A DNA stretch of 64,000 nt, taken from Chitinophaga sp. LS1 (GTDB taxonomy: Bacteria > Bacteroidota > Bacteroidia > Chitinophagales > Chitinophagaceae). Shown piece after piece: positions 13,563 to 38,394 of the stretch; position 1 is the stretch's first letter, and each line of letters starts with the position of its first letter. The notes beneath the pieces were generated by a model. It had not been told where the DNA came from. It saw only the letters and a list, made by a program, of their open reading frames with translations, and searched no databases. The position numbers and the translations under genes are program-made. The DNA lies in assembly GCF_034274695.1 (NCBI RefSeq), contig NZ_CP128362.1, forward strand, positions 4,156,501 to 4,220,500, written 5' to 3'.

Positions 13563-13605
13563 TGAAGTTACCGCAAATGGCAGGGGCCGGAGATGATGAC
13601 CATCA
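13563..13605 (-). promoter_or_regulatory. Crp/Fnr-type palindrome upstream of the hydrogenase operon
   Basis: TGAT-GACC-ATCA at 13594-13605 is a perfect TGAT-N4-ATCA palindrome in the gap between the divergent hydrogenase and hyp units. On the minus strand a weak -7-like element TAACTTCA (13570-13563, 4 of 6 fixed bases) has its TA step exactly 30 bp from the palindrome centre. Control of the rightward hyp unit from the same site is possible, but I see no -7 element at the matching distance. Confidence 0.55.
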
Positions 13606-13676
13606 GAAATACGGCTGATCCTAGTTACCCTTTTTGCGGCAATTCAATCTTTACTTTGAGGGTACAAACGAGCCCA

Positions 13677-13871
13677 ATGAAAAGATCACTAATACTCTCA
13701 ATCATTTTATTGCCACTTATGGCGTCGGCACATCCCGGTCATGGAACGACTGAAGGCTTTACAATCATCCACTACTTTACGGAATGGAACCATGCTATGT
13801 TTACATGGCCGGTGATACTGCTGACTATCGGATTAATAATAAGAGCAAAGAGAAGCACGGGGAATGCATGA
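13677..13871 (+). CDS. Small membrane protein with HPGH signal region, HupE-like fragment
   Basis: The product has 64 residues. I chose the ATG at 13677 because it opens directly into a signal peptide (MKRSLILSIILLPLMASA); a longer frame from 13593 has an unlikely N-terminus. After cleavage the protein would begin HPGHG, the metal-binding start seen in HupE/UreJ-type nickel or metal permeases, and it has one further membrane span at about 42-58. It is far shorter than HupE and cannot be a full transporter. It overlaps hypA by 8 bases and is the first gene of the rightward maturation unit, so a role in hydrogenase biogenesis is a reasonable inference. Confidence 0.7.
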   Translation: MKRSLILSIILLPLMASAHPGHGTTEGFTIIHYFTEWNHAMFTWPVILLTIGLIIRAKRSTGNA

Positions 13872-14196
13872 GTTGTCCATAGTAATGGGCATCATTGATG
13901 TAGTCACGGAATATGCACAGGGTACACCCGTCAAAGAGGTAACACTGGATATTGGTTGCCTCACGACGATCGAGCTATTTGCTTTTGATATGGCCTGGAA
14001 ACAGGCGATCAAAGGTACACTACTTGAAAGCGCTACGCTGGACATTAACCGGATCGAAGGGAAGGCCTTGTGCCTGGAGTGTGGGGAAGAGTTTGCTATT
14101 AATGAAGTATATGATGCCTGTACAGGATGCGGAAGTCACCTGATACAAATTGCACAGGGAAAGGAATTGAAAGTACGTTCATTGATCATTTATTAA
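13864..14196 (+). CDS. hypA: Hydrogenase nickel-insertion zinc protein HypA
   Basis: Metallochaperone that delivers nickel to the hydrogenase large subunit together with HypB. The product has 110 residues. It begins MHELSIV, in which the His at position 2 is the nickel ligand, and carries two CxxC pairs, CLECG and CTGCGS, that bind the structural zinc. Both the length and the motifs match the family. It overlaps the preceding small membrane protein gene and is followed by hypB, a typical order. Whether it also supplies urease cannot be told, as no urease genes are in the window. Confidence 0.93.
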   Translation: MHELSIVMGIIDVVTEYAQGTPVKEVTLDIGCLTTIELFAFDMAWKQAIKGTLLESATLDINRIEGKALCLECGEEFAINEVYDACTGCGSHLIQIAQGKELKVRSLIIY

Positions 14197-14206
14197 ATTG
14201 AAAGTT

Positions 14207-14911
14207 ATGTGCGCTACTTGTGGATGCGATACACATACTCATACACATTCTCATACTCATGATGAGAAACATATAGCTGTAGAGAAGGATGTCTTATATG
14301 AGAATAACTTATTGGCGGCAAGGAATCGTGGTTTTTTCGATGCAAAGAACATACTCGCGATCAATCTGGTCAGCTCACCGGGTTCAGGGAAGACGACATT
14401 ATTAGAAAGGACATTGACAGACCTGAAAGAACAAGTGAGTTTTAGCGTAATAGAAGGAGATCAGCAAACTACCCGTGATGCTGACCGGATACATGCCACA
14501 GGAACAAAAGTAGTTCAGATCAATACTGGTAAAGGTTGTCATCTGGATGCGCATATGGTAATGCATGCCTTACAGGGAATGCATCCGCATGAAGATGGTG
14601 TATTATTTATAGAGAATGTGGGCAACCTGGTTTGCCCTGCGATGTTCGATCTGGGAGAGAAAGAACGAGTTGTCGTGATGAGTGTAACAGAGGGTGATGA
14701 CAAGCCGTTGAAATATCCGGACATGTTTCATACATCTCATCTGTGCATCATTAATAAAATAGATTTATTGCCCTATGTCCCTTTTTCTCTTGACAAGGCA
14801 ATTGCCAATGCAAAGCGGATTAATCCAAAACTGGAAGTGATTACGCTGAGTTGTACATCAGGAGAGGGACTGGATAAATGGTATCAATGGCTGGAATCAA
14901 AAAAATCGTGA
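14207..14911 (+). CDS. hypB: Hydrogenase nickel-incorporation GTPase HypB
   Basis: GTPase that drives nickel transfer into the large subunit. I place the start at the ATG at 14207, not the upstream TTG at 14198, because it gives MCATCGC, the N-terminal nickel-binding motif of HypB (E. coli: MCTTCGC). A short histidine-rich stretch (THTHTHSHTH) follows and should store nickel. The P-loop is SSPGSGKTTLLE; later come GDQQTTRDADRI, FIENVGNLVCP with the metal-site cysteine, and the NKID GTP-specificity motif. Length is 234 residues. The end overlaps the start of hypF by 34 bases, so translation is likely coupled. Confidence 0.95.
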   Translation: MCATCGCDTHTHTHSHTHDEKHIAVEKDVLYENNLLAARNRGFFDAKNILAINLVSSPGSGKTTLLERTLTDLKEQVSFSVIEGDQQTTRDADRIHATGTKVVQINTGKGCHLDAHMVMHALQGMHPHEDGVLFIENVGNLVCPAMFDLGEKERVVVMSVTEGDDKPLKYPDMFHTSHLCIINKIDLLPYVPFSLDKAIANAKRINPKLEVITLSCTSGEGLDKWYQWLESKKS

Positions 14912-17064: not shown

Positions 17065-17066
17065 TT

Positions 17067-17312
17067 ATGTGTCTGGCTATACCGGGAAAAGTCATCACCA
17101 TTGATGAAGGAGAAGATGCATTGTTCAGAAAAGGCAAGGTCTCTTTCAGTGGGATAACAAGAGAAGTGAATCTTTGTATGGTGCCGGAAGCGGTATTGGG
17201 AGATTATGTGTTGGTGCATGTGGGCGTGGCAATTGGGGTGGTGAATGAGGAGGAGGCGAAGGAGATCTTCTCGTATTTGGAGCAGATGGGGGATTTGGAG
17301 GAGTTATTGTGA
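17067..17312 (+). CDS. hypC: Hydrogenase assembly chaperone HypC
   Basis: Small chaperone that, with HypD, carries the Fe(CN)2CO unit and docks it on the large subunit. The product has 81 residues and opens MCLAIPGKV, where the cysteine after the initiator Met is the essential iron ligand. It follows hypF by 2 bases. The 78-base gap to hypD is longer than the other junctions in this unit and holds a partial copy of the hypD start region. Confidence 0.95.
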   Translation: MCLAIPGKVITIDEGEDALFRKGKVSFSGITREVNLCMVPEAVLGDYVLVHVGVAIGVVNEEEAKEIFSYLEQMGDLEELL

Positions 17313-17333
17313 GATAGATCTTTTCATATCCTG

Positions 17334-17410
17334 TAAAGGAATTGTAATGAAGTATGTCGGTAAATACATTTGTGATCTGAAGGAATTGTTATGAAATACA
17401 TCAGTGAATA
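17334..17410 (+). repeat. Duplicated hypD translation start with 15-codon leader frame
   Basis: AAGGAATTGTAATGAAGTAT near 17337-17356 is repeated 44 bases later as AAGGAATTGTTATGAAATAC, the real hypD start. The upstream copy opens an ATG at 17347 that encodes [15 protein letters not shown] and stops at a TGA (17392-17394) overlapping the hypD ATG (17391). This is a decoy start or a translationally coupled leader. Confidence 0.7.
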
Positions 17411-19720: not shown

Positions 19721-19766
19721 GTAATAGATATATGGCTGTAGGTTAATTTGCATAGGCGTTATTATT

Positions 19767-23964: not shown

Positions 23965-24555
23965 TCACACATATACCTTCCCCTTATTCACCAGCAAATC
24001 TCCCTTCTTATACATCCCCCTGATCGTCCTTATCACCGTCTCCACCCTCAACCCTGTCATATCCGCAATCTGCTGCCTCGTCAACGTTACCCGTAACTTT
24101 CCCTGCAATAATTCCGGTACCGTATACCGCTTCAACACGCCTCTTATCAACACGGCCGGCTCACTACATGTCATCTCTCTTGATAAAATAGACTTCTGTC
24201 TCAACCGCATCGCCAGCAAAGTAGTAAATGCATAATGTATCTCCGGATTCTCTTTCAGCAACTGAATAAACGTGGGCTTCGGCAATCGTAAAATAACACT
24301 ATCACTATCAGCTACAGCCGCTGCCGGATAACCCATACCCGTAAATAGCGGCGGCTCTCCAAACGAGTCTCCTGCTACAAATATCCCCTGTATAAACTCC
24401 TTCCCATTCATGCCCGTGTTCACCATCCTGACTTCCCCGGATTCAATCTGGTAGTAAAAATGTGCTTCTTCCCCCTCGGTAAAGATAACCCGGCCTTTTT
24501 CCGCTGTTAACCGGATAGCACCCCATTTCCTCAGCAGGTCGGTGTGGATAATCAT
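23965..24555 (-). CDS. Crp/Fnr-family transcriptional regulator
   Basis: The product has 197 residues from the ATG at 24555 (MIIHTDLLRKW), which fits the family; a longer frame begins at 24678. A cyclic-nucleotide-binding-like beta barrel (GRVIFTEGEEAHFYYQIESG, GDSFGEPPLF) is followed by a winged helix-turn-helix (TLTRQQIADMTG, recognition helix RVETVIRTIRGM). In E. coli FNR the recognition helix reads VETISR; here the Glu and Arg that contact TGAT half-sites are kept and the Ser is Ile. There is only one cysteine, so an FNR-type 4Fe-4S oxygen sensor is excluded; a heme/NO-sensing DNR/NnrR-like mode is possible. It is divergent from the nos operon and is the likely user of the TGAT-N4-ATCA sites. 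Confidence 0.9.
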   Translation of the reverse strand: MIIHTDLLRKWGAIRLTAEKGRVIFTEGEEAHFYYQIESGEVRMVNTGMNGKEFIQGIFVAGDSFGEPPLFTGMGYPAAAVADSDSVILRLPKPTFIQLLKENPEIHYAFTTLLAMRLRQKSILSREMTCSEPAVLIRGVLKRYTVPELLQGKLRVTLTRQQIADMTGLRVETVIRTIRGMYKKGDLLVNKGKVYV

Positions 24556-24630
24556 TGTGAATGATTTATTAACTATACCAAAGCTAGCCCTACCCGTCAT
24601 CCGGATAAATGATTGAAAACAGTTTTCCTG

Positions 24631-24644
24631 ATGATTAGTATCAA
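24631..24644. promoter_or_regulatory. Crp/Fnr box, distal copy upstream of cytochrome c-nos
   Basis: ATGAT-TAGT-ATCAA matches the FNR consensus TTGAT-N4-ATCAA at 9 of 10 fixed positions. It lies between the divergent regulator and cytochrome c genes, 24 bp (centre to centre) from the second box. Confidence 0.65.
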
Positions 24645-24654
24645 GACCGTTTTT

Positions 24655-24698
24655 ATGATCTGGATCATATCCTCGCACTTTTAAGTAGCGTAATGTTG
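24655..24698 (+). promoter_or_regulatory. Crp/Fnr box and -7 element of the cytochrome c-nos promoter
   Basis: TGAT-CTGG-ATCA (24656-24667) is a perfect palindrome core. TAATGTTG at 24691-24698 matches TAnnTTTG at 5 of 6 fixed bases, with its TA exactly 30 bp from the palindrome centre, placing the box near -41 as in class II activation. The gene start is at 24733. Confidence 0.65.
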
Positions 24699-24732
24699 TA
24701 CTCAGGTATTGTCAGAACACAATCTTTAATAA

Positions 24733-25218
24733 ATGAAAAAGTACGTTTACATAGCAGTGCTCCTGGGGCTGACCTGGGCCTGCTCAAATAACAGCCAACC
24801 TCCCAAAGAGGAATCCCCGGCACCTGTAGTTGAAGACAATAGTCTTGCAAGTTCCAATTCTGCATCAGCATACGATTCCATCAAAGGGGCAGGGAAATTT
24901 ACTAATGTAGCCCTTAGCGCCACATTAGATCAGAAAATGATTGCCGCAGGCAAAACCGTGTACGAAGTAAAATGTGCCGCCTGCCATAAGCTAACCGACG
25001 AAAAGCTGGTGGGACCCGGCTGGAAAGGTGTTACGAAGAAAAAATCCGCTGAATGGATTATGAACTTTGTCACCAACACTGATGAGATGATCGACAAAGA
25101 TCCTCATGCTCAGGCTATGCTGGCAGTTTGTATGGTTCGCATGCCAAACCAGCACCTGACTGATGAGGAAACAAGAGACGTATTTGAATTTATGCGTAAC
25201 AATGATTCATCTAAATAG
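24733..25218 (+). CDS. Cytochrome c lipoprotein, electron donor candidate for NosZ
   Basis: The product has 161 residues with a lipoprotein signal (MKKYVYIAVLLGLTWAC, lipid Cys at 17), so it is membrane-tethered in the periplasm. One heme c site CAACH lies at 81-85, and M137 in RMPNQ is the likely sixth ligand. A cytochrome c gene next to nosZ is typical of clade II nos operons, where it is thought to feed electrons to the N2O reductase. It is the first gene of the operon, 88 bases behind a pair of Crp/Fnr boxes. The nosZ start lies 7 bases after its stop, or overlaps it if the upstream ATG is used. Confidence 0.92.
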   Translation: MKKYVYIAVLLGLTWACSNNSQPPKEESPAPVVEDNSLASSNSASAYDSIKGAGKFTNVALSATLDQKMIAAGKTVYEVKCAACHKLTDEKLVGPGWKGVTKKKSAEWIMNFVTNTDEMIDKDPHAQAMLAVCMVRMPNQHLTDEETRDVFEFMRNNDSSK

Positions 25219-25225
25219 TTATTCT

Positions 25226-27187
25226 ATGCGGTTATGTTCAATAGCGGTGCTTATCATAGCACTCGCATCCTGTAAACCACGTAATGAAGCCGGCGCCATC
25301 AATGCAGGTGCTGCTGAAAAAGTTTACGTTGCACCGGGTAAATACGACGAGTTCTACAACTTCGTTTCCGGTGGTTTTAATGGTCAGGTGTCTGTTTATG
25401 GTATTCCTTCTGGCCGTTTGCTCAAAATTATCCCTGTATTCTCTGTAATGCCTGAAAATGGCTATGGATATAGCGAAGAAACTAAACCTATGCTGGAAAC
25501 CTCTCACGGTTCTCTGCCATGGGATGACCAACACCACCTGGAACTGTCTCAGAAAGATGGTACCCCAGATGGTCGCTGGCTCTTCGCTAATGCCAACAAC
25601 ACTCCAAGGGTAGCACGTATCAACCTCGCTACTTTCAGAACAGAAGAGATCATCGAACTGCCTAACAGCGCCGGTAACCACTCTTCTCCTTTCTGTACTG
25701 AAAACACAGAATATGTAGTAGCGGGTACCCGCTTCAGCGTTCCTGTTGGTGACAATCAGGACGTACCTATCGCTGATTACAAGAAGTCTTTCAACGGTAC
25801 CGTGAGCTTTATCAAAATTGATTCCAGCAATGGTCGCATGTCTCTGGCTTTCCAGTTGCTGACCCCTGCTATCAACTTTGACCTGAGCCATGCCGGTAAA
25901 GGACCAAGCCACGACTGGTTCTTCTTTTCCTGCTACAATGTAGAACAGGCACATACCCTGCTTGAAGTAAACGCTTCTCAGCGTGATAAAGACTTCATCA
26001 TGGCGGTGAACTGGAAGAAAGCGGAAGAATTTATCCGTAATAACAAAGGTACATTGAAGAACTCCCGTTATGCACACAACGTGTATAATGAAACGACTCA
26101 CAGCGCTACTTCTGCTATCGAAACCAAAGTGCTGACACTGGATCCATCTCAACTGAAAGATTTCGTGTACTTCATTCCCTGTCCTAAATCTCCACATGGT
26201 GTTGATATCGACCCAAGCGGTGAATATATCGTAGGTAGTGGTAAACTGGCGGCACTCATTCCTGTATTCTCTTTTACCAAACTGATGACGGCAATTGAGA
26301 AGAAAGATTTTGATGGCGACTACCAGGGTATCCCTGTTGTTAAATACGAATCAGCCCTGTACGGTGAAGTACAGAAACCAGGCCTTGGTCCATTGCACAC
26401 TGAGTTCGACGGAAAGGGCAATGCGTATACTTCCTTCTTCGTTTCTTCCGAAGTAGTGAAATGGAGCATCAAAGACCTGAAAGTACTCGACAGAAAACCT
26501 ACTTATTATTCCGTAGGGCACCTGTGTATTCCAGGCGGCGATACCAAACATCCTTTTGGCAAATACCTGATTGCATATAACAAGATCACAAAAGACCGCT
26601 ATCTGCCTACAGGTCCTGAGCTGGCTCAAAGTGCACAGCTGTACGACATCTCAGGTGATAAGATGGAACTGTTGCTGGACTTCCCTACTGTAGGTGAACC
26701 TCACTATGCACAGGCACTGCCTGCTGACCTGATTAAGAATAACTCTGTGAAGTATTTCAAGATCGAGGAAAACAAACATCCTTATGTAACAAAGGGTGAA
26801 AAAGAAGCGAAGGTAGTTCGTGAAGGTAACAAAGTACATGTGTATATCACTTCTATACGTTCCCACTTTACACCTGATAACATCGAAGGTGTATGTGTTG
26901 GCGATGAAGTATATTTCCATGTTACTAACCTGGAACAGGATTGGGATATTCCACACGGCTTTGCTGTGAAAGGTGCTGCCAATGCAGAGATCCTGATCAT
27001 GCCTGGCGAAACCTGTACACTGAAGTGGGTACCAGATGCAGAAGGTGTTTATCCAATATACTGTACTGACTTCTGTAGCGCGTTGCACCAGGAAATGCAG
27101 GGTTATGTAAGAGTATCTAAAGCTGGTGCAAACACACCACTCAAGTACGGTACTAACCTACCTGATAGTGCAGTAGCGAAAAACTAA
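25226..27187 (+). CDS. nosZ: Nitrous oxide reductase, clade II (Sec/lipoprotein type)
   Basis: Catalyses N2O + 2H+ + 2e- to N2 + H2O in the periplasm. The start at 25226 gives a lipoprotein signal (MRLCSIAVLIIALASC); an in-frame ATG at 25202 is possible. There is no twin-arginine motif, which separates clade II from clade I enzymes. A seven-bladed propeller region with the CuZ histidine motif DDQHHLELS near residue 100 is followed by a cupredoxin domain with the CuA ligands C613, C617, H621 and M624 (CTDFCSALHQEM). Length is 653 residues. Plain overlap with a cytochrome c gene before and nosL, nosD, nosF, nosY after confirms the assignment. Confidence 0.96.
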   Translation: MRLCSIAVLIIALASCKPRNEAGAINAGAAEKVYVAPGKYDEFYNFVSGGFNGQVSVYGIPSGRLLKIIPVFSVMPENGYGYSEETKPMLETSHGSLPWDDQHHLELSQKDGTPDGRWLFANANNTPRVARINLATFRTEEIIELPNSAGNHSSPFCTENTEYVVAGTRFSVPVGDNQDVPIADYKKSFNGTVSFIKIDSSNGRMSLAFQLLTPAINFDLSHAGKGPSHDWFFFSCYNVEQAHTLLEVNASQRDKDFIMAVNWKKAEEFIRNNKGTLKNSRYAHNVYNETTHSATSAIETKVLTLDPSQLKDFVYFIPCPKSPHGVDIDPSGEYIVGSGKLAALIPVFSFTKLMTAIEKKDFDGDYQGIPVVKYESALYGEVQKPGLGPLHTEFDGKGNAYTSFFVSSEVVKWSIKDLKVLDRKPTYYSVGHLCIPGGDTKHPFGKYLIAYNKITKDRYLPTGPELAQSAQLYDISGDKMELLLDFPTVGEPHYAQALPADLIKNNSVKYFKIEENKHPYVTKGEKEAKVVREGNKVHVYITSIRSHFTPDNIEGVCVGDEVYFHVTNLEQDWDIPHGFAVKGAANAEILIMPGETCTLKWVPDAEGVYPIYCTDFCSALHQEMQGYVRVSKAGANTPLKYGTNLPDSAVAKN

Positions 27188-27197: not shown

Positions 27198-28157
27198 ATG
27201 CAAAGAAAATTGTCAACCCGTTTTCGGGCAATCATTTTCATGCTTTCATTGGCGATGGTGGCAGTGCTCTATTTTCCTATCTGGAAAATAGAGCTGGCCG
27301 CTCCCCAATACCCGGAAGGCCTGACGTTGAAAATTGCTGCTAACGGATTACGCGGGGATGTGGATATCGTGAATGGATTGAACCATTACATTGGTATGCA
27401 AACATTGCACACCGAAGATTTTATAGAGTTTAAGATCTTACCTTTTATACTGGGGGGATTGGCTGTGCTTGGGTTTGTTGTATGTGCACTGAATAACAGA
27501 AAGGTATATTATGGGTGGGTGGTATTGTTCCTGCTGGTAGCGGTTGTTGCGATGGTTGATTTTTACAGATGGGAATATAACTATGGTCATCACCTGAATC
27601 CCGAAGCGCCAATCAGGGTACCGGGCATGGCATATCAGCCACCATTACTGGGTTATAAACAGTTGTTGAATTTCGGGGCGTATTCTATACCCGATGTAGG
27701 TGGATGGATCTTTATTGGAGTAGGAGCGTTGTTGGTGTTGCTCTCATTTAAATTTAAGAAAGGTTTTTTTGTAGTGGCAGGGTTGACGTTGGGATTACAG
27801 AGTTGTAGTTCAGGTCCTGCACCTATCAGGTATGGACAGGATGCTTGTGACTTCTGTAAAATGGGCTTTACAGACAAGCGTTTTGGTGCAGAGATCGTAA
27901 CAAAGAAGGGGAAGGTTTTTAAGTATGACGATGTGCATTGTTTGCTGGCGGCATTAAAAGCTGGCGGACAGGAAGTAGGCGGGATCTGGTTTCTGGACTT
28001 TACTGATGGACAATGGATCAAAGCGGAAGATAGCAGGTTATTGCACAATACTGCATTTCATTCTCCAATGGGTAGTGACATTGCTGCGTTTGCAGACAGT
28101 GTGCATATGAAAGAATTTAACGGAGAATCACTCACATGGAAAGGGCTATATCGGTAA
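27198..28157 (+). CDS. nosL: Membrane protein fused to NosL copper chaperone domain
   Basis: The product has 319 residues. Residues 1-190 have four hydrophobic spans (about 10-28, 77-96, 106-122, 168-188) of a membrane protein often found in clade II nos operons. From about 187 the sequence reads KKGFFVVAGLTLGLQSC, a complete lipoprotein signal with Cys203, followed by NosL itself with the copper-binding CDFCKM at 217-222. NosL supplies copper to NosZ. The frame is continuous, so either a two-domain protein is made or translation also begins internally at a TTG/GTG near 27730-27740. The gene starts 10 bases after nosZ and overlaps nosD by 22 bases. Confidence 0.85.
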   Translation: MQRKLSTRFRAIIFMLSLAMVAVLYFPIWKIELAAPQYPEGLTLKIAANGLRGDVDIVNGLNHYIGMQTLHTEDFIEFKILPFILGGLAVLGFVVCALNNRKVYYGWVVLFLLVAVVAMVDFYRWEYNYGHHLNPEAPIRVPGMAYQPPLLGYKQLLNFGAYSIPDVGGWIFIGVGALLVLLSFKFKKGFFVVAGLTLGLQSCSSGPAPIRYGQDACDFCKMGFTDKRFGAEIVTKKGKVFKYDDVHCLLAALKAGGQEVGGIWFLDFTDGQWIKAEDSRLLHNTAFHSPMGSDIAAFADSVHMKEFNGESLTWKGLYR

Positions 28158-29356
28158 TAATTTTATGGCTGTTGTCTTTGCAGGCATGGGCCGGGGTATT
28201 GACGGTGAAAGGGTCTATAAAAGAAACCTTGCAGCGGGCAGTGGCAGGTGATACTGTTGTAGTACCCGCAGGTGTTTACTACGAAAAAGGCCTGGTGATT
28301 GATAAAGCTATTTATCTGAAAGGGATCAACAAGCCGGTTCTGGATGGAGAGAATAAATATGAAGTGATATTGATACTGTCCAGTCATGTGACGGTGGATG
28401 GATTTGTGATCAGGCATTCCGGTTTTTCTGACTGGAAAGATCTGGCAGGAATCAAACTGGGCAATGTGCGGCATGTGACGATTCAAAACAATGTACTGGA
28501 AGAAACGTTCTTTGGCATTTACTGTCAGCAGTCTGATAGCTGCACCATACAAAACAATACATTGCGTTCCAATGCCAGTCAGCGTATTCAATCCGGAAAT
28601 GGTATTCATTGCTGGCACTGTGATGGCATGCAACTGATAGGGAATACGGTCACGCAGCACAGAGATGGTATCTACTTTGAGTTTGTAACGAATTCACTGA
28701 TCAAAGGGAATCATAGTTTTAAAAATGTGCGGTATGGTTTGCACTTTATGTTTTCGCACAATGACCACTATGAGGATAATATTTTTGATCACAACGAGGC
28801 GGGCGTATCTGTGATGTTTTCACATGGTGTGGATATGAAGCGGAATACATTCGCTGGCAATCAGGGTGGTGGTGCGTATGGAATATTGCTGAAAGAGATT
28901 ACAGACAGCAAAATGGAGAAGAGCCACTTTGAAGACAATACGGTTGGGATTTATATGGAAGGTACCACGAGAGTGCAGGTGATGGACAATGTGTTTAAGG
29001 CAAATGGCTGGGCCATGAAGGTGCAGGCAAGTTGTTCTGAGAACAGAATCACCCGCAATAACTTTGTCGGCAACACATTTGATGTAGCGACGAATGGCTC
29101 ACTGGTACTGAACAATTTTGATAATAATTACTGGGACAAATATGAAGGGTATGATCTGAACAGAGATGGAAAAGGAGACGTGCCTTATCACCCGGTGAGT
29201 TTGTATGCAATGGTGGCAGATAAGAACCCGGCTGTGATGATGTTGTTTCACAGTTTCATGGTGAGTTTGCTGGACCGGACGGAAAAAGTAATGCCGGGTA
29301 TCACACCTGTGAACCTGGTGGATCGTGCACCGAGTATGAAACCCCTTTCATTATGA
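28136..29356 (+). CDS. nosD: NosD, periplasmic parallel beta-helix protein for CuZ assembly
   Basis: The product has 406 residues with a signal peptide (about 1-20). It is made of right-handed beta-helix (CASH) repeats visible as recurring N-rich turns such as GIYCQQSDSCTIQNNTL, GIYFEFVTNSLIKGN and GIYMEGTTRVQVMDN. NosD works with the NosFY ABC transporter to mature the copper-sulfide centre of NosZ. It overlaps nosL at its start and nosF by 4 bases at its end (ATGA), indicating coupled translation. The C-terminal 60 residues include a hydrophobic helix (AVMMLFHSFMVSLL) of unclear role. Confidence 0.94.
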   Translation: MERAISVIILWLLSLQAWAGVLTVKGSIKETLQRAVAGDTVVVPAGVYYEKGLVIDKAIYLKGINKPVLDGENKYEVILILSSHVTVDGFVIRHSGFSDWKDLAGIKLGNVRHVTIQNNVLEETFFGIYCQQSDSCTIQNNTLRSNASQRIQSGNGIHCWHCDGMQLIGNTVTQHRDGIYFEFVTNSLIKGNHSFKNVRYGLHFMFSHNDHYEDNIFDHNEAGVSVMFSHGVDMKRNTFAGNQGGGAYGILLKEITDSKMEKSHFEDNTVGIYMEGTTRVQVMDNVFKANGWAMKVQASCSENRITRNNFVGNTFDVATNGSLVLNNFDNNYWDKYEGYDLNRDGKGDVPYHPVSLYAMVADKNPAVMMLFHSFMVSLLDRTEKVMPGITPVNLVDRAPSMKPLSL

Positions 29357-30060
29357 TTCGTTTTACAAATATATACAAACGATTTGGCCGGCTACAGGCA
29401 TTGGATAATATCAATCTCTTTTTTGAAGAAGGAAAGAGTATTGCTTTGATTGGACCAAATGGTAGTGGGAAGACCACTTTGATCAAGGGTCTGTTGGGAA
29501 TGGTGGTGCCTGATAAGGGGGATATCGCTTTTAAAGGAGTTTCCGTATTAGGTAGTTGCGAATACAGGGGCAATATTGGTTATATGCCGCAGATAAGCAG
29601 TTATCCTGAGAATATGACTATTGCACAGGTGATAGAGATGATGAAGGATATCAGGCAGTATACAACGTTGGATGAAGACCTGGTACATGCCTTTAAATTG
29701 CCACAGCTGGCCAATAAGCGCATGCGGACATTATCTGGTGGTACAAGGCAGAAGGTGAGTGCTTGTCTGGCGTTTTTATTCAATCCTGAAGTGTTGGTGC
29801 TGGATGAACCTACTGCGGGATTGGACCCGGTAGCATCAGGGATTTTGCAGGACAAGATCCTGCAGGAGACAAAGAATGGTAAGCTGGTGCTAATCACCTC
29901 ACATATCTTGTCGGAACTGGATGATCTGGTAGATGAGGTGGCGTATCTGCAGGATGGTAAAGTACAGTTTCATAAGCAGGTGGCAGAGTTGCAGGCGGAG
30001 ACAGGGGAGCAAAAGTTAGTACGCGCAATAGCACGTATCATGGAAAATGGAGGACTATAA
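29353..30060 (+). CDS. nosF: NosF, ABC transporter ATP-binding subunit
   Basis: The product has 235 residues. Walker A is GPNGSGKTT (residues 36-44), the signature is LSGGTRQK, Walker B is VLVLDEPTAG, and the switch His lies in ITSHILSE. With NosY it powers a sulfur-related export step in NosZ copper-site assembly. The gene overlaps nosD by 4 bases. Its last 11 codons are the first copy of a 62-bp tandem repeat that now separates it from nosY; in the repeat's last copy the same position reads CTATGA, suggesting that the original stop overlapped the nosY start. Confidence 0.94.
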   Translation: MIRFTNIYKRFGRLQALDNINLFFEEGKSIALIGPNGSGKTTLIKGLLGMVVPDKGDIAFKGVSVLGSCEYRGNIGYMPQISSYPENMTIAQVIEMMKDIRQYTTLDEDLVHAFKLPQLANKRMRTLSGGTRQKVSACLAFLFNPEVLVLDEPTAGLDPVASGILQDKILQETKNGKLVLITSHILSELDDLVDEVAYLQDGKVQFHKQVAELQAETGEQKLVRAIARIMENGGL

Positions 30061-30186
30061 AAAAGGGTAATAAGCACACAGTGCATGTAATAGCACGTGT
30101 CATGGAAAATGGAGGACTATAAAAAAGGGTAATAAGCACACAGTGCATGTAATAGCATGTGTCATGGAAAATGGAGGACTATGAAA
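30027..30186 (+). repeat. 62-bp tandem repeat (2.6 copies) at the nosF/nosY junction
   Basis: Copies begin at 30027, 30089 and 30151, each starting AATAGCA. The first copy codes the NosF tail and ends GGAGGACTATAA. The third gives GGAGGACTATGAAAAAG, which provides the ribosome-binding site and ATG (30181) of nosY. Only a few bases differ between copies, so the duplication looks recent. Confidence 0.9.
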
Positions 30187-30948
30187 AAGATTATTAAATA
30201 CGTATTACTAGACATCTTACGTAACAGGATATTGGTAAGTTATACAGTACTGCTATTGGTCGTGTCAATGTTATTACTCTGTCTTACAGACAACAGCACA
30301 AAAGCGTTACTGAGCTTATTAAATATCGTGCTGATTGTATTACCACTGGTGAGTATTATTTTTTCAACGATCTATTATTATAATGCATCGGCGTTTATAG
30401 AGTTGCTGGTTTGTCAGCCGTTGCGAAGAACGAAGATATTATTAAGTGTCTATACCGGATTGGGGTTGTCATTGCTGATTGCATTTGTAGTAGGAGTGGG
30501 GGTACCGTTAATGATCTTTGACGGGAGTATGACGGCGGTGTTGTTGATATTGGTAGGCATGGCGCTGACAGTGATCTTTTCAGCGCTGGCCATTTTAGGA
30601 TCTGTGATTATGCGTGACAAGGCGAGAGGCATTGGGGTAGCGATATTGGCGTGGTTTTATTTCTCCTTGTTGTATGATGGGTTGGTGCTGTTTCTCTTGT
30701 TTCAGTTCAGCGACTATCCGTTGGAGAAACCGGCAGTCGTGATGGGAGCATTGAACCCGATAGATCTGGGTAGAATCATAGTTTTATTAAGATTGGATAG
30801 TTCTGCGATGATGGGGTATACAGGCGCGGTGTTTGCCTCATTTTTCGGAAGCGTGGGTGGTATGCTCACGGGTTTTACACTCTTGTTATTATGGATGGGG
30901 TGGCCGTTATGCTGCGCGCTGCGGCGATTTAATAGAAAAGACTTGTAA
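30181..30948 (+). CDS. nosY: NosY, ABC transporter permease subunit
   Basis: The product has 255 residues with six predicted spans (for example ILVSYTVLLLVVSMLLLCL, then LSLLIAFVVGVGVPLMIF). The start at 30181 has GGAGG 5 bases upstream; the longer frame from 30157 begins within repeat sequence and is rejected. NosY forms the membrane channel of the NosDFY complex. A 62-bp tandem duplication lies between it and nosF, adding about 120 bases of untranslated sequence. The next gene, ric, begins 20 bases after its stop. Confidence 0.92.
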   Translation: MKKIIKYVLLDILRNRILVSYTVLLLVVSMLLLCLTDNSTKALLSLLNIVLIVLPLVSIIFSTIYYYNASAFIELLVCQPLRRTKILLSVYTGLGLSLLIAFVVGVGVPLMIFDGSMTAVLLILVGMALTVIFSALAILGSVIMRDKARGIGVAILAWFYFSLLYDGLVLFLLFQFSDYPLEKPAVVMGALNPIDLGRIIVLLRLDSSAMMGYTGAVFASFFGSVGGMLTGFTLLLLWMGWPLCCALRRFNRKDL

Positions 30949-30968
30949 TCAAATTTAACAATTTCAAC

Positions 30969-31664
30969 ATGGTAAGAAATAATGTAATCACAGTCGGAGA
31001 AATGGCTGGAAAGGACTATCGCATGGCTGATGTTTTCAGAGGTTTTGGTATCGATTTTTGTTGTGGTGGCGGTCAGACCATTGCGCAGGCTGCAACACAG
31101 GGTGGTATTACAGAAGAAGAGCTGTGGACAGCACTGGAAACGGCAGCGTTAAAGGCGAAACAGCCAGCGAGCGACTTCAGTGTATTAGCACCTCAGTTAC
31201 TGGCAGAACACATTCTGAGTACACACCATAAATATGTGAAAGAAGCATTGCCAGTGATCTGGGAGTTTGCACAGAAGGTAGCAGGACATCATGGGGATAC
31301 GCATCCAGAGCTGATTGATCTGAGAGCTGCTGTGCTGCGTGAAGCAGAAGATCTGCTGGATCATCTGGAAAAAGAAGAACAGATCCTGTTCCCGGCTATC
31401 AAACAAATGGCTGCTGGCGAAACAGGGCTGCCATATGTAAAAGGTGCGGTAGAAAGTATGATGAAAGAACACAGTTCATCAGGAGAATCACTGGAAGAAT
31501 GGCGTAGGTTGACGAATAATTACCAGGTGCCGGAAGGTGCGTGCAATTCATACAGATTCCTCTTTGAGAAATTGCAGGAGTTCGATACAGACTTAAGACA
31601 ACATATTCATTTAGAGAATAACATTTTATTTCCCAAGGCTTTGGCAATGTTGCAGGAAGCTTAA
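30969..31664 (+). CDS. ric: Iron-sulfur cluster repair di-iron protein (Ric/ScdA/YtfE)
   Basis: Repairs Fe-S clusters damaged by nitric oxide or oxidants. The product has 231 residues. The N-terminal DUF542 motif FGIDFCCGGGQT at about 28-39 is followed by a hemerythrin-like four-helix domain with His/Glu di-iron ligands (HILSTHHKYV, HHGDTHPEL, LEKEEQILFPAI, HLENNILFPKA). It follows nosY by 20 bases on the same strand and has a terminator behind it, so it is probably the last gene of the nos operon. The association fits handling of NO and N2O stress. Confidence 0.94.
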   Translation: MVRNNVITVGEMAGKDYRMADVFRGFGIDFCCGGGQTIAQAATQGGITEEELWTALETAALKAKQPASDFSVLAPQLLAEHILSTHHKYVKEALPVIWEFAQKVAGHHGDTHPELIDLRAAVLREAEDLLDHLEKEEQILFPAIKQMAAGETGLPYVKGAVESMMKEHSSSGESLEEWRRLTNNYQVPEGACNSYRFLFEKLQEFDTDLRQHIHLENNILFPKALAMLQEA

Positions 31665-32061: not shown

Positions 32062-32802
32062 TTAGTATTGATTTTCAATACTTTTCCTAACAGCGTCTTC
32101 TGCTTCCTGCAAAACTACCTCTGCAGAGCGACCTGCAGGTTCGATAGGAGTGAGTACGGACCAACTCATTTTTTCGAATGTGCCCAGTGGGAAATTTCCA
32201 TACCTGAAAAACTTCCAGCTACCATTAATGGCGACAGGAACGATGAGTGCCTGAGGAACTTTTTTAAGCAGGATGCTGACGCCCCCGGTCATGAAAGGCT
32301 TCATTTCGCCCTTCCGGCTACGGGTACCTTCGGGGAAGATAACGGCAGACCAGTTCTTTTCCTGCATACGGGTACCTAGCTTGAGCAGTTCACCCATAGA
32401 TTGCTTTTTGTCTTTGCGGTCGATGTTGGCCGCACCACCATATTTAAGGTTAAAACTGATGCTTGGGATGCCACTGGCCAGTTCAATTTTGGAAACGAAC
32501 TTGGCGTGGTACTTCCGGAGGTGCCAGATCAGTGGTGGAATATCGTACATGCTCTGGTGGTTCGCCACGAAAATAATAGGACGGTCGTTGGGCAAGGTCT
32601 GGTGATTGACAAAGCGGGCACGACAGCCCAGGATCATATAGGTACTGGATAGCAATCCGTTCAGAATATCAACAGAGGTCTTATGGGCTTTGTAGCCTCC
32701 TAATTTGAGACAGAGCCACTGGATGGGGTGGAAAATCAGCAGAAATCCACCAAAGAATAAATAATGGATGGGGGATAAGATATATCCGGGCAGTTTCTTC
32801 AT
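32062..32802 (-). CDS. plsC: 1-acyl-sn-glycerol-3-phosphate acyltransferase (PlsC family)
   Basis: Adds the second acyl chain in phosphatidic acid synthesis, or acylates a related lipid. The product has 246 residues. The catalytic HX4D box is NHQSMYD at about 81-87, and the substrate-binding FPEGTRSR lies at about 159-166. A hydrophobic N-terminus (about 10-30) anchors it to the inner membrane. It stands alone. Unusually, a TGAT-N4-ATCA palindrome and a perfect TAnnTTTG element lie just upstream, with the same 30-bp spacing as at the nos operon, so expression may follow oxygen or NO status. Which acyl acceptor it uses cannot be told. Confidence 0.9.
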   Translation of the reverse strand: MKKLPGYILSPIHYLFFGGFLLIFHPIQWLCLKLGGYKAHKTSVDILNGLLSSTYMILGCRARFVNHQTLPNDRPIIFVANHQSMYDIPPLIWHLRKYHAKFVSKIELASGIPSISFNLKYGGAANIDRKDKKQSMGELLKLGTRMQEKNWSAVIFPEGTRSRKGEMKPFMTGGVSILLKKVPQALIVPVAINGSWKFFRYGNFPLGTFEKMSWSVLTPIEPAGRSAEVVLQEAEDAVRKSIENQY

Positions 32803-32833
32803 TATATCAATACTTTTTTCAATAATCCGGGGA

Positions 32834-32876
32834 CAAATTTAGGGAGAATAAGGCTAATTGCGTCTGATAATGATCA
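32834..32876 (-). promoter_or_regulatory. Crp/Fnr box and promoter of plsC
   Basis: TGAT-AATG-ATCA occupies 32865-32876. On the minus strand TAAATTTG (32841-32834) is a full match to TAnnTTTG, and its TA lies exactly 30 bp from the palindrome centre. The plsC ATG is at 32802, 32 bases downstream of the element. Confidence 0.6.
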
Positions 32877-33063
32877 GAGATGCATTTAGATTTTTATATG
32901 TTTACCTATATTACCTATGCTTACCCAGTACGAATTGGAAGGCAATGTACAATATGCAGCGTACTTTAACAAGGATAGCAAAATTCATGCTATGCTCCGC
33001 TCGATTTAAAAGGAATAAATGAAGCGGGTATCCAAAAGATCTTATGGGCGGGCGAAAGTTTTT

Positions 33064-33603: not shown

Positions 33604-33634
33604 TGATGACTTTGTATTGATGGATCTGTCGGTT

Positions 33635-34596: not shown

Positions 34597-34932
34597 GTTG
34601 AGTTTTTAGTTGTTTAACCAGGTCAAATGCATAGGTAAATGGAACTTTCTAATCTTTCGATCTATATAGATGCTGAAGAATTGAAATATGGTTTCCAGAT
34701 AATGTTGTGGTCTGCACCTGCATTTTCATAGTATAGATTCAGTTACAAATATAATAACTCTTACAGATTAGTGCAATTGGGGAGGTGTTTTTATTGATAA
34801 TCAATAATTTATATTGATAAAGGCCCGCTTTTTAAGGACTGAGCGCTGATAATTACTGCTAATAATTCTGTATTATTTAATTGGCTGGGGAGTATATTTT
34901 TATAGGAAACCCAAACCTATAAAGCCGCATTT
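34597..34932. other. Non-coding gap
   Basis: The 336 bases are AT-rich. I see no convincing gene; a 30-codon plus-strand frame at about 34639 lacks support. No hairpin with a T run and no TAnnTTTG element stand out. Confidence 0.5.
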
Positions 34933-35302
34933 ATGAAGTTCAAACTTTACTTTTTGTTCCTTTTATTGCCCTGTATTGTTACTGATGTATGCGCACAGTA
35001 TGTAGATCTGACCTTTACCGTTAAGAACACAAGCAGTGATGGCGATGGCTCCACAGCTGTAATTGGCCAGACACTAACATATACAATTACAATGAAAAAT
35101 CTCTCTACTACTACCAGCATTACTGGCGTCCGGCTAATCGCCGACATTCCTTACGGAACGAATTATAAACCTGGCACCACAAAGCAAGGTGCCGCAGTGC
35201 TGGCAGATGTAATTGGAAACTGACTTGCCAAAAGGTATATATATTGTAGAAGTACTGGCAGGTAATAAGCGCATTTACAAGCAGAAACTGGAAAAGTTAT
35301 AG
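34933..35302 (+). pseudogene. DUF11-type surface protein collapsed by internal deletion
   Basis: From 34933 a signal peptide (MKFKLYFLFLLLPCIVTDVC) leads into a DUF11-like repeat start (TLTYTITMKNLSTTTSITGV, DIPYGTNYK), which stops at 35221. In another frame, from about 35214 to the TAG at 35300-35302, runs the final strand of a type IX sorting domain (DLPKGIYIVEVLAGNKRIYK). The first and last parts of a large DUF11 adhesin-like gene have been joined out of frame, with everything between lost. This mirrors the SDR remnant at 3245. Confidence 0.7.
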
Positions 35303-35344
35303 GTTGGCTGCATATTACCGAATCGTAGGTTCTTGTTAGCAATC

Positions 35345-36025
35345 TTAATTTCTTAATACCAACTCTATACAATTACTCCTGGAAACCTTATCAGGGTCAA
35401 TTCTATTTCTTGTATTGGCAAGGTTGCCAAGAGTAATTGTGTCATTTATAAAATGCTGGATAAAAAACTTGCCTACATACCCTTTATCAGCCAATACATC
35501 CACCATCTCCTGAATATCCGCTTCATGCAGTAATGAAGTATGCACCGTCGTCCTCACTTCAAAAGGAATCGCTCCATTCATCAACAACTGTAACGTCGCT
35601 TCAAAGTGCTCATATAATGAAGACTTTGTGATCGCCTCATATTTATAAACAGGTGCTTTGTAATCCAGCGCAACATAATCGATCAATCCATTTTTCATCA
35701 AATCAGCCATTAAAGAAGGATTAGACCCATTCGTATCGACCTTCACCAAAAAACCCTCTTCTTTCACCTGTTCACAAAACGTCACCAACTCCTTATGCAA
35801 CGTACATTCCCCACCACTCAATACCACTCCATCCAACAACCCCTTCCGCTTACGCAAAAACCGCAGCGCATCTTCATAGCTAAGCTTCCCTTTCCCAAGC
35901 ACAATCCCCGGATTATAACAATACACACATCTCATATTACAGCCTGCAAACCAAAGTATGCAGGCTGTCTTATCCGGATAATCCAGTAATGTAAAAGGCG
36001 TAATACTATGAATAGGCTTATTCAC
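35345..36025 (-). CDS. nrdG: Anaerobic ribonucleotide reductase activating protein
   Basis: Radical SAM enzyme that installs the glycyl radical on NrdD. The product has 226 residues. The 4Fe-4S motif CxxxCxxC is C29, C33, C36 in AGCNMRCVYCYNPG, followed by VVLSGGECTLH, the Gly-rich SAM contact. Its ATG (36025) overlaps the nrdD stop by 8 bases, so the pair is co-translated. It is somewhat longer than E. coli NrdG and closer to the pyruvate-formate-lyase-activase-like form common in anaerobes. Confidence 0.93.
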   Translation of the reverse strand: MNKPIHSITPFTLLDYPDKTACILWFAGCNMRCVYCYNPGIVLGKGKLSYEDALRFLRKRKGLLDGVVLSGGECTLHKELVTFCEQVKEEGFLVKVDTNGSNPSLMADLMKNGLIDYVALDYKAPVYKYEAITKSSLYEHFEATLQLLMNGAIPFEVRTTVHTSLLHEADIQEMVDVLADKGYVGKFFIQHFINDTITLGNLANTRNRIDPDKVSRSNCIELVLRN

Positions 36026-38210
36026 AATGGATCATTTCCGTAAAATGCACTCTTTGTTTATGTTCCCCTTTTTTACCGATATTGAAACTCTCCACCGGTC
36101 TGTGATAACCCATCACACGTGTATACACCAGGCATTTCTGGCTTTCATCTTCACATATCGGACAATGCTCATGCTCACCTGAAAGGTACCCATGTTCAGG
36201 ACAAATACTGAACACCGGTGTTACCGTGATGTAAGGCAGCCTAAACTGTGATAATACTTTTTTTACCAGGTTGCGACATGCTTCAGGCGTACTGATCTTC
36301 TCTCTCATGTACAAATGCAGCACGGTGCCTCCTGTATATTTACATTGCAGTTCATCCTGCAATAGCAGTGCTTCAAACGGATCGTCTGTATAGTCCACCG
36401 GGATCTGTGAACTGTTGGTATAATAGATATTACTATCCATCCCCGCCTGTATAATATCCGGGAAGCGTTTTTTATCTTCTTTCGCAAACCGGTATGTAGT
36501 ACCCTCTGCTGGCGTGGCTTCCAGGTTGTATAGGTTGCCTGTTTCAGTTTGGTACTGCGTCATCTTTTTACGGATGTGTTCCAGTACATCAGCAGCCATT
36601 TCACGACCAGTTTCAGAAATAATATCATCCTGATCATTGGTGAAGTTCCTGATCATTTCATTGATACCATTCACTCCAATGGTAGAAAAGTGATTCCGAA
36701 AATGTGTGAGGTAGCGTTTTGTATACGGGAATAATCCCCTGTCGTACATATCCTGTATAAACACTCTTTTCTTTTCCAGCGTTGATTTAGCAAGGTCCAG
36801 TAAGAAATCTAATCGCTTGTACATCGCATGGTGATCCCCTTTGTACAGGTATCCCAGTCGCGCCATATTGATGGTCACTACCCCAATACTTCCTGTCATT
36901 TCTGCACTACCAAACAGCCCATTACCGCGTTTTAATAATTCACGCAGATCCAGCTGTAAGCGGCAGCACATGCTTCTCACCGCATTGGGTTTATAAGCAT
37001 TCGGATTTTCTACCCGATTGCCATTGTCATCAAAGATGTATTGACTACCGATAAAATTCTGGAAGTAAGAAGACCCGATACGTGCTGTGTTTTCAAACAG
37101 CAGGTCTGTATTCTCACCATACCAGTCAAAGTCTTCCGTGATATTCACAGTAGGGATCGGGAAAGTAAACGGTTGCCCATTGGCATCGCCTTCTGTCATC
37201 ACAGTATAATACGCTTTGTTGATCAGGTTCATCTCAGGTTGGAAATGAATGTAGGTCAGTTCGCTGAGTTGATCCACCCCTCTGTCTTTGGCTTTCTGTA
37301 AAATAACCGGATCAGTGATGCCATCAAAAAGATGTATATCTTTTTTGGTCGGGAACTGTAATTTCAAATCTTCCGGCACCGTCCAGTCGATAGTAATATT
37401 TGTAAACGGAGATTGTCCCCAGCGGGCAGGTACATTCAGGTTGTATACAAAGCTCCTGACTGCTTTCAGGATATCTTCATAGCGAAGATCATCTTTAAAA
37501 ACATACGGGGCAAGGTAGGTGTCGAAAGAGCTGAAAGCCTGTGCGCCGGCCCATTCGCTTTGGAGAATACCGAGGAAGTTCGCCATCTGGCCCAGTGCTT
37601 CGCGAAAGTGATTCGGAGGGCGGCTTTCCACACGTCCTCTTACACCATTGAAACCCTCATTCAGTAATGCACGCAAGCTCCATCCGGCACAGTATCCTGT
37701 AAGGCAGTCGATATCATGGATGTGAACATCACCATTGCGATGTGCATAACCTTCTTCCTGGGAATATACCTTATCCAGCCAGTAGTTGGCAATGATCTTA
37801 CCCGCTACATTGTTCACCAGTCCTGCGTTGGAATAAGAAGTATTCGCATTGGCATTGATGCGCCAGTCAGTCTGAGTGATGTATTCTTCAATCGTTTGTG
37901 TGGTATCCACCAGCGTAGTAGATGGCGTAAGGCCATGTACATGTTCCCGTTGTAATTTACGGGTGTGTCTGTATAGCATAAATGCCCGCATCACTTCAAA
38001 GTGACTGTGTGCAAACAATTCTTTTTCGATGATATCCTGGATCTCTTCTACTGACCACACTTCTTTGTGCAGCAGTTGAGCCGTGACCTGTTGGCAGATT
38101 GTTTCATCAGGTTTTTTATTCACACCGATGAACCCCTTTTCTATCGCATCTTTTATCTTAAACGCTTTAAAAGGTTCAAACTCACCATTTCTTTTGATAA
38201 CGTAATTCAT
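36018..38210 (-). CDS. nrdD: Anaerobic (class III) ribonucleoside-triphosphate reductase
   Basis: Reduces ribonucleotides without oxygen. The product has 730 residues: ATP-cone allosteric domain (about 1-90), the 10-stranded barrel core with RSMCCRLQLDLRELLKRGNG, a zinc site (CPEHGYLSGEHEHCPIC, near 673-690), and the glycyl radical loop YTRVMGYHRP with G701 as the radical residue. Together with nrdG it lets the cell make dNTPs in the absence of oxygen, in line with the hydrogenase and nos genes. A TGAT-N4-ATCA palindrome lies 173 bases upstream of the start. Confidence 0.95.
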   Translation of the reverse strand: MNYVIKRNGEFEPFKAFKIKDAIEKGFIGVNKKPDETICQQVTAQLLHKEVWSVEEIQDIIEKELFAHSHFEVMRAFMLYRHTRKLQREHVHGLTPSTTLVDTTQTIEEYITQTDWRINANANTSYSNAGLVNNVAGKIIANYWLDKVYSQEEGYAHRNGDVHIHDIDCLTGYCAGWSLRALLNEGFNGVRGRVESRPPNHFREALGQMANFLGILQSEWAGAQAFSSFDTYLAPYVFKDDLRYEDILKAVRSFVYNLNVPARWGQSPFTNITIDWTVPEDLKLQFPTKKDIHLFDGITDPVILQKAKDRGVDQLSELTYIHFQPEMNLINKAYYTVMTEGDANGQPFTFPIPTVNITEDFDWYGENTDLLFENTARIGSSYFQNFIGSQYIFDDNGNRVENPNAYKPNAVRSMCCRLQLDLRELLKRGNGLFGSAEMTGSIGVVTINMARLGYLYKGDHHAMYKRLDFLLDLAKSTLEKKRVFIQDMYDRGLFPYTKRYLTHFRNHFSTIGVNGINEMIRNFTNDQDDIISETGREMAADVLEHIRKKMTQYQTETGNLYNLEATPAEGTTYRFAKEDKKRFPDIIQAGMDSNIYYTNSSQIPVDYTDDPFEALLLQDELQCKYTGGTVLHLYMREKISTPEACRNLVKKVLSQFRLPYITVTPVFSICPEHGYLSGEHEHCPICEDESQKCLVYTRVMGYHRPVESFNIGKKGEHKQRVHFTEMIHCE

Positions 38211-38382
38211 GGCTTTTAATGGGTTATTTCGGGTGCAAAATACCTGTTCGGTAGAAGAAGCGTTTTAAAACTTGTCAACAGAGGGTGCGAAAATAAATGG
38301 CATTCAACCGCCATTTTTGAGCCGGTATCTGATGAAATAACAGCCGGAGAATTAAGACAGGCAAGGTTCAATTATTAAACCA

Positions 38383-38394
38383 TGATGGTGATCA
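38383..38394. promoter_or_regulatory. Crp/Fnr-type palindrome upstream of nrdD
   Basis: TGAT-GGTG-ATCA is a perfect TGAT-N4-ATCA core, 173 bp upstream of the nrdD ATG. Unlike the other boxes, no -7-like element lies 30 bp away, so its role is less certain. The rest of the 38211-38646 gap shows only a small hairpin (GCCGGA/TCCGGC, 38530-38547). Confidence 0.5.

Follow-up and report, generated by a model that had tools for sequence, protein, structure and literature searches.

How is respiration of nitrous oxide (N2O) switched on in the Bacteroidota? Clade II N2O reducers, many of which belong to this phylum, are an important biological sink of the greenhouse gas, and how nosZ is switched on is poorly known outside the Proteobacteria. 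The question is raised by a 64-kb stretch of Chitinophaga sp. LS1 (positions 4156501-4220500 of an 8.67-Mb, single-contig genome; hereafter the window), which carries a clade II nos operon, a neighbouring gene for a Crp/Fnr-family regulator (23965..24555, minus strand) and, between the two, the palindrome TGAT-N4-ATCA. The original prediction, made from the letters of the window, listed exact copies of this core at 13594, 24632, 24656, 32865 and 38383, placed three of them 30 bp from a -7-like element, and, by proposing the nos-adjacent protein for DNA binding, implied one regulon over all five. The five copies are present, and no other exact one occurs in the window. The spacing proves to extend far beyond the window and the single regulon does not, since the nos site alone fits the operator TATGA-N6-TCATA that is described below. 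We give a probability of roughly three in four to a reading in which two Crp/Fnr regulators with sister operators would activate promoters of the TAnnTTTG type from the class II position.

According to this proposal, the palindromes would mark class II, activator-dependent promoters fitted to the housekeeping sigma factor of the Bacteroidota. With the palindrome centre 30 (sometimes 31) bp ahead of the TA in the -7 element, at about -41.5, a bound dimer would touch RNA polymerase and compensate for weak promoter elements, and at least two regulators would share this geometry with related operators. Regulator B, the 23965-24555 protein with the recognition helix VETVIR, most likely recognises TATGAY-N4-RTCATA before nos (type B sites) and perhaps, weakly, a site before its own gene. 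Regulator A, a protein family with N-terminal cysteines and the helix TESAIR that is represented elsewhere in the genome by locus L171, most likely recognises yTGAT-N4-ATCATT (type A sites), which stands before genes of low-oxygen respiration across the genus. The signals would be oxygen for regulator A and either an N-oxide or oxygen for regulator B. Within the window, 24656 would be of type B, 32865 would be phased without being of type B, and 24632 may be accessory.

The case for a nos operator begins with the nos promoters at large. We surveyed 80 nos loci, of which 75 offer more than 1 kb upstream of nosZ, and scanned the stretch from -1000 to -350. TGAT-N4-ATCA occurs in 43 of these 75 stretches and is the top of the 256 half-sites at a spacer of 4, the next reaching 18 loci; at other spacers TGAT falls to 0-4 loci, and shuffled sequences give a mean of 1.6 and a maximum of 7. 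The wider word ATGA-N6-TCAT is found in 69/75, and the strict operator TATGA-N6-TCATA precedes nosZ in 52/75 and lies inside nosZ in 0/75. The 53 strict nos sites, with a rough consensus of TATGAYTNNARTCATA, derive from Chitinophagaceae, Flavobacteriaceae or relatives, Cyclobacteriaceae and one Kapaibacterium record, which lacks a -7 element.

In the window the corresponding operator is TATGATCTGGATCATA (24654..24669, plus strand), which contains the 24656 core and retains both outer half-sites in 5/5 aligned genus relatives. When a type B score matrix built from 78 nos sites is applied, none of the 76 TGATN4ATCA sites in a sample of the same genome (80 stretches outside the window, 1.6 Mb or 18%) reaches its score; as a type A match it is ordinary, with 34% of the 76 scoring as high. 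A -7-like element, TAATGTTG (24691..24698, plus strand, 5/6 matches), follows at the gap that we term N23, which corresponds to 30 bp from palindrome centre to the TA of the -7 element. Judged by word, conservation and score, 24656 is a very strong candidate for the nos operator. The first gene past this promoter encodes a cytochrome c (24733..25218, plus strand; Pfam Cytochrom_C), and nosZ itself, a clade II, Sec-dependent nitrous-oxide reductase, occupies 25163..27187 on the same strand (TIGR04246, 934 bits against a cut-off of 625). Family scans of the remainder (27198..31664, plus strand) recognise a NosL-domain protein, NosD, an ABC ATPase, an ABC-2 permease and a hemerythrin/ScdA_N (RIC-type) protein, with whose gene the operon terminates.

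The claim of a fixed 30-bp distance, with the activator near -41, is strongly supported both in the genus and at the nos loci. Sigma-A promoters of Flavobacterium carry TAnnTTTG at -12 to -5 (PMC9723704), and an N23 gap therefore centres the palindrome at -41.5, the predicted position of a class II activator. In 60 genomes of the genus, searched with TGATN4ATCA-N{9,38}-TAnnTTTG (30 possible gaps), 237 of 690 pairs stand at N23, while the other 29 gaps average 15.6; leaving aside our own genome and its same-species partner gives 223/646. Because related genomes share promoters, alike strings were merged among the 150 listed pairs of the 690 (52/150 at N23), which yielded 31 families at N23, 9 at N24 and no more than 7 at any other gap. 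Merging of these listed pairs on the gap bases alone gave 25, 33 and 36 N23 families at 50, 60 and 70% identity. A small rise at N34-36 in the same family count sets the palindrome roughly one turn of the helix further upstream than the main phase does. In our own genome there are 22 strict palindrome/-7 pairs, seven of them at N23, of which three are copies of one repeat in coding sequence and four stand. The three copies (L054, L055 and L056, at 5.09-5.11 Mb) carry the full N23 pattern and were rejected as promoters; such a coding repeat would mislead motif scans.

The nos promoters follow the same phase. Among the 53 strict nos sites a -7-like element with at least 5/6 matches lies at N23 in 34 and at N24 in 9, the next gap reaching 6, and after merging it lies at N23 in 21 and at N24 in 4 of 34 families. 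These elements are often damaged (TAATCTTG, GAAATTTG; TAatCTTG, GAaaTTTG), as is expected for activator-dependent promoters. The opposite reading would make the palindromes repressor operators, at which binding near -41 blocks the polymerase. An exact -41.5 phase combined with degraded promoter elements, however, is typical of class II activation, and it is this combination that the nos sites display. We therefore consider repression very improbable, the observation in its favour being a Crp/Fnr gene negatively correlated with nosZ expression in a Campylobacterota species (PMC11539149).

Which protein would bind the nos operator? The nos-adjacent product, 196 amino acids with the recognition helix TRQQIADMTGLRVETVIR, belongs to the CRP/FNR superfamily: both Pfam domains (cNMP_binding and HTH_Crp_2) score above cut-off and its PDB relatives are FNR, CRP and DNR. 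It does not have the Fe-S cysteine set of the FNR subfamily, with one cysteine in its 196 residues, and it scores 52.7 bits with the Fnr model against a cut-off of 228. Its helix VETVIR aligns with VETISR of FNR, and positions 180 and 181, which Rodionov et al. 2005 (PMC1274295) linked to bases 3 and 6 of Crp/Fnr sites, are V and E in both. Relatives stand beside nos in 33/80 loci, all with [GC][LM]RVETVIR, and an ETVIR-helix protein is present in 19 of 22 nos genomes, chosen from the 80 loci, that were searched whole. These include 13/13 Flavobacterium genomes (41-46% identity) and 4/4 of Chryseobacterium/Kaistella; in neither group was it found beside nos in the examined flanks (up to 5 kb). 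A relative occurs in 12/60 genus genomes. On this footing we lean, with some reserve, towards the wider proposition that Bacteroidota N2O respiration would be under a dedicated Crp/Fnr subfamily with the constant helix ETVIR, acting at TATGAY-N4-RTCATA centred on -41.5 upstream of a damaged -7 element, beside a sister FNR-like system.

In 23 of 34 aligned relatives of regulator B a CxxC lies just before the helix-turn-helix, and 20 have a cysteine in a C-terminal KVYC motif. The window protein has neither, so these residues are not its sensor; they could possibly form a metal or redox site that has been lost in this lineage.

The regulator gene has a promoter of its own that the original prediction missed: an imperfect operator, TGTTTTCAATCA (locus L158; 24610-24621, minus strand), at N23 from a perfect -7 element, TAGCTTTG (24579-24586, minus strand). 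In six aligned sequences, including the window and its same-species partner, the half ATCATT is kept in 6/6 and the other half drifts, while the -7 element is kept in 5/6. Regulator B is likely to be autoregulated, perhaps weakly.

Regulator B would not account for the phased promoters of the genus as a whole. In 48 of the 60 genomes, in which the best regulator B match is weaker than about 1e-19 and no VETVIR-type relative occurs, the same architecture is common, with 191 of 531 pairs at N23; this is one reason why a single regulon over the five window sites is not supported. To see which genes such promoters face, 30 of the 237 N23 loci were inspected, at most one per genome. One lies inside an open reading frame (ORF) of more than 150 amino acids, and for 24 there is an ORF on the same strand no more than 350 bp away. 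Family scans of 13 of these 24 products returned cytochrome bd subunit I (cydA, L244), HemN (L247), succinate dehydrogenase cytochrome b (sdhC, L232), a copper-type P-type ATPase with an ATPase-cat_bd domain (L248), which we infer to be CcoI-like, a fatty-acid desaturase (L225), a RIC-like protein (L237; 42.7 bits, cut-off 204.7), an inward-rectifier K channel (L252), a FabH-like protein (L246), a DUF3817 protein (L229), an alpha/beta hydrolase (L243), an epimerase (L233) and a dehydrogenase (L254); the remaining product, L228, matched no family in the scan.

In our own genome 33 sites match with at most one mismatch, and the products of eight were scanned: cbb3 oxidase subunit I (L153, the gene being cut by the locus end), an anaerobic sulfatase maturase (L164), an acetyl-CoA hydrolase/transferase (L167), a nitronate monooxygenase (L148), a peptidase U32 (L151), and three without a family in the scans (L051, L066 and L168). 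Two of these three had been read by eye as a universal stress protein (L168) and as GreA-like (L066), identities that were rejected as neither has a Pfam family. Several further one-mismatch matches sit inside ORFs and look like chance. The set of targets resembles an FNR/ANR regulon.

Two further features of these promoters were observed. At L225, L234, L239 and L249, desaturase-like genes (L225 by scan, the others by likeness) begin 5 nt past the -7 element of their N23 promoters. The transcripts probably lack a leader, and desaturation, which depends on oxygen, seems to be driven from promoters built like those of the low-oxygen genes. At L317 two palindromes, one exact and one with a single mismatch, stand 22 bp from each other (1897501 and 1897523 of the genome) before a cbb3 oxidase gene; the second has TAGCTTTG at N23, and the arrangement is like the tandem pair at nos.

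A candidate binder of the type A sites emerges from gene order. By coordinates, 12 genomes have an N23 site immediately downstream of a Crp/Fnr gene. In all 12 loci, when fetched, the Crp/Fnr product is 79-93% identical to L171 of our own genome, with the helix SREEIANLVGTATESAI and N-terminal cysteines, and the N23 promoter faces the gene of an L248-like P-type ATPase, from which a RIC-like gene separates it in 6/12. The pattern CX2C-X8..13-C together with C112 is present in these 12/12 and is kept in 11 of 13 further TESAIR-helix loci. The best NCBIfam model for L171 is Fnr (98.7 bits, below the cut-off of 228). The FNR-like L171 family is the likeliest binder of type A sites.

If the L171 family served the phased promoters of the genus, it might serve nos as well, the nos-adjacent protein having some other role. 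Such a single regulator would agree with the E-x-x-I-R that both proteins carry in the recognition helix and with the shared core of the operators. Yet the outer TA marks the nos sites and was not seen at the 30 inspected N23 sites, the window nos site is ordinary by the type A score and best by the type B score, and the nos-adjacent protein stands beside nos in 33/80 loci, its helix being present in 19 of the 22 nos genomes searched whole. We consider a single regulator unlikely and prefer the two-regulator reading.

Several observations weigh against the two-regulator reading, or against parts of it. Strict operators are absent from 23/75 nos upstream stretches and ATGA-N6-TCAT from 6/75; inside nosZ, ATGA-N6-TCAT occurs in 9/75 and the short core in 10/75. 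Merging of the listed pairs at 50% identity with the -7 letters included leaves 9 families at N23 and up to 7 elsewhere, chance identity being high in a measure that includes these fixed letters. The 18 intergenic sites of the 1.6-Mb own-genome sample, too small a sample for the purpose, do not show the phase. The ETVIR proteins of Chryseobacterium/Kaistella are only 28-31% identical to the window protein; of the three genomes among the 22 that fall outside the 19, two (L069, in which the operator is present, and L084) showed nothing close to regulator B; the third, L070, has a match that is left out of the 19. Our genome holds 11 HTH_Crp_2 proteins, and other binders are possible. On the scaffolds of one study (PMC6264515), the genes commonly found next to clade II nos encode Rrf2-family regulators rather than Crp/Fnr proteins. 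Lastly, TATGAN6TCATA is not enriched in our own genome (17 occurrences against 22 of a reversed control). As a genome-wide regulon motif for this species it was rejected, and the operator consequently looks nearly dedicated to nos here.

How far the remaining window sites share in this scheme depends on what chance would supply. The expectation of about one core per 64 kb given in the original prediction is too low: dinucleotide shuffles of the window average 2.4 (standard deviation 1.45), and as 8 of 100 reach five, the notion that five sites are improbable by themselves was rejected. In the genome sample (ORF cut-off of at least 80 amino acids), TGATN4ATCA is about 2.6 times denser between genes than within them: 18 sites in 170 kb between ORFs, where half-site frequencies predict 7.4, and 58 in 1.43 Mb inside ORFs, where they predict 68.3. 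TGAT ranks 6 of 256 half-sites between genes and 215 inside. On this count the original prediction is not refuted, but the intergenic excess is mild, as five other half-sites exceed the z-score of TGAT between genes. The strict FNR box TTGATN4ATCAA was rejected as the motif, with 19 copies in the 8.67-Mb genome and 0 in the window.

All five sites had been called intergenic. Four are so on any reading; 13594 falls within the ORF 13593-13871 and is scored as genic in our own gene list. The gene in this ORF probably starts at an in-frame ATG at 13677, after which a signal-peptide-like sequence follows, and with that start the site would be intergenic. The 30-bp distances stated for hydrogenase, nos and plsC are all correct (N23), though their -7 elements are unequal, with 4/6, 5/6 and 6/6 matches respectively.

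One may then ask whether, apart from nos and perhaps plsC, the window sites are simply chance occurrences, a view that is compatible with the two-regulator reading for the rest of the genus. Beyond the shuffles, it agrees with the type B scores of the four non-nos sites, which 29-41% of the 76 sampled genome sites equal; with such ordinary scores a regulon over all five is not supported. It agrees also with the drift of the hydrogenase and nrdD sites, which have no convincing -7 element and are altered in some close relatives, a further reason to set the single regulon aside. Conservation at plsC and at 24632 speaks against it. We place the chance of this view a little short of even.

At plsC, the operator TGATCATTATCA (32865..32876, minus strand) faces a -7 element, TAAATTTG (32834..32841, minus strand, 6/6), at N23, upstream of a plsC-type acyltransferase gene (32062..32802, minus strand; Pfam Acyltransferase). 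Core and spacing are kept in 4/4 relatives, namely the same-species genome G014 and the genus relatives G046, G031 and G051, with the spacer changed in three. The -7 element reads TAAATTTG in two of them (G014, G046) and TATCTTGC in the other two (G031, G051). Site 32865 is a fairly good candidate for a phased operator. Next to the core, C..G is replaced by A..T in G031 and by C..T in G051, and a symmetric flank change in two relatives was rejected, as G031 alone shows it. The form TATCTTGC (L380 in G051, L381 in G031) agrees with TAnnTTGY, the SM5 form in Flavobacterium, and not with TAnnTTTG.

The distal palindrome TGATTAGTATCA (24632..24643), 24 bp upstream of the nos operator, does match an FNR box at 9/10 fixed bases, as had been noted. 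Its core is kept despite a changed spacer in G046, G031 and G051, and is not kept in G041; no -7 element of at least 5/6 matches lies at gaps of 18-39 in either direction. It may be an accessory site or chance. The palindrome TGATGACCATCA (13594..13605), a candidate operator between the hydrogenase and hyp genes, has 4/6 elements at N23 on the hydrogenase side (TAACTTCA) and on the other (CCTTTTTG). Its core is broken to TGAC in G046, and conservation upstream of the hydrogenase is uninformative in that the whole region is nearly identical; as a hydrogenase operator it is a weak candidate. Upstream of nrdD, TGATGGTGATCA (38383..38394) has no -7 element at N23 and reads TGAT-N4-GTCA in G046, G051 and G031, which makes it a poor candidate for an nrdD operator.

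The proposed systems can be set beside known ones. FNR and DNR boxes of Proteobacteria (TTGATnnnnATCAA; DNR, CTTGATnnnnATCAAG) share the inner TGAT-N4-ATCA core, and their regulators belong to the same protein superfamily and act from a class II position near -41.5. They differ in the outer bases, which are TT/AA in the FNR box, whereas the nos sites have TATGA..TCATA and type A sites yTGAT..ATCATT, the outer bases being y and TT; in the helix, ETISR against ETVIR or TESAIR; and in the promoter, where TAnnTTTG takes the place of a sigma-70 -10 element. DNR boxes stand upstream of nir, nor and nos genes, denitrification targets as here (PMC1274295). For N-oxide sensors of the DNR/NnrR type, which respond to NO and usually do so through heme, the window offers context, a nos operon ending in a RIC-type protein gene. 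HcpR2 of Bacteroides and others (GTAACnnnnGTTAC) is likewise a Crp/Fnr regulator in Bacteroidota, predicted for hcp, an N-oxide stress gene (PMC1274295); it has Pro, Ser or Gln at position 181 and the operator just given, whereas the window protein has Glu (RVETVIR) and the operator TATGA-N6-TCATA.

Crp/Fnr proteins linked to clade II nosZ have been described as NssA/B in Wolinella, in Nitrosophilus, and as an NnrR-like gene on one nos scaffold of the Cytophaga-Flavobacterium-Bacteroides group (PMC11539149, PMC6264515). The sites near clade II denitrification genes in Campylobacterota are TTGA-N6-TCAA (PMC11539149), unlike TATGA-N6-TCATA, and the account of the scaffold reports the neighbouring gene and gives no operator in its passage on it (PMC6264515). 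In Flavobacterium, a limited supply of oxygen raises the expression of cbb3 oxidase and heme genes, and sigma-A promoters share the TAnnTTTG element; a word search of the main text of that study finds no mention of Crp/FNR, and its passages on these promoters and genes describe no activator operator (PMC9723704). CRP/FNR proteins in metagenome-assembled genomes of Flavobacteriales and Saprospiraceae were assigned to MalR (PMC8510549), and heme-binding HcpR and PgRsp occur in Porphyromonas (PMC12040651). Our searches of the open-licence literature brought up no account of either a TATGA-N6-TCATA nos operator or a -41.5 rule in Bacteroidota.

For N2O respiration, the analysis offers a named candidate regulator together with its precise operator, a rule for the spacing and a prediction of where transcription starts. 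Placed about 11-12 bp past the TA, the predicted starts are at about 24702-24703 (plus strand) for nos, 32829-32830 (minus strand) for plsC and 24574-24575 (minus strand) for the regulator gene. It suggests that activators of the Bacteroidota obey the same -41.5 rule as those of Escherichia coli despite different promoter elements, a rule that helps regulon prediction in a phylum with few known regulons. If true, there would be a phylum-level code for class II activation built on the TAnnTTTG promoter, and the ETVIR subfamily, so far uncharacterised, would be part of it.

Two other genes of the window were traced through the genus. The NiFe hydrogenase small subunit (12430..13548, minus strand; TIGR00391, 498.6 bits, cut-off 179.5), which stands beside hyp genes, is found in 5/60 genus genomes, plus one remote match. 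The anaerobic ribonucleotide reductase nrdD (36018..38210, minus strand; NF006126, 1107 bits, cut-off 548), with a radical-SAM protein beside it, is present in the same five and in G041. Hydrogenase, nos regulator and nrdD (window 9937-38210) co-occur in 5/60 genomes, two of which are one species, and this co-occurrence suggests an anaerobic island whose parts are acquired or lost together. Finally, at six loci (L173, L175, L176, L177, L178 and L179) a response-regulator receiver appears, by eye, to be fused to a Crp/Fnr module.

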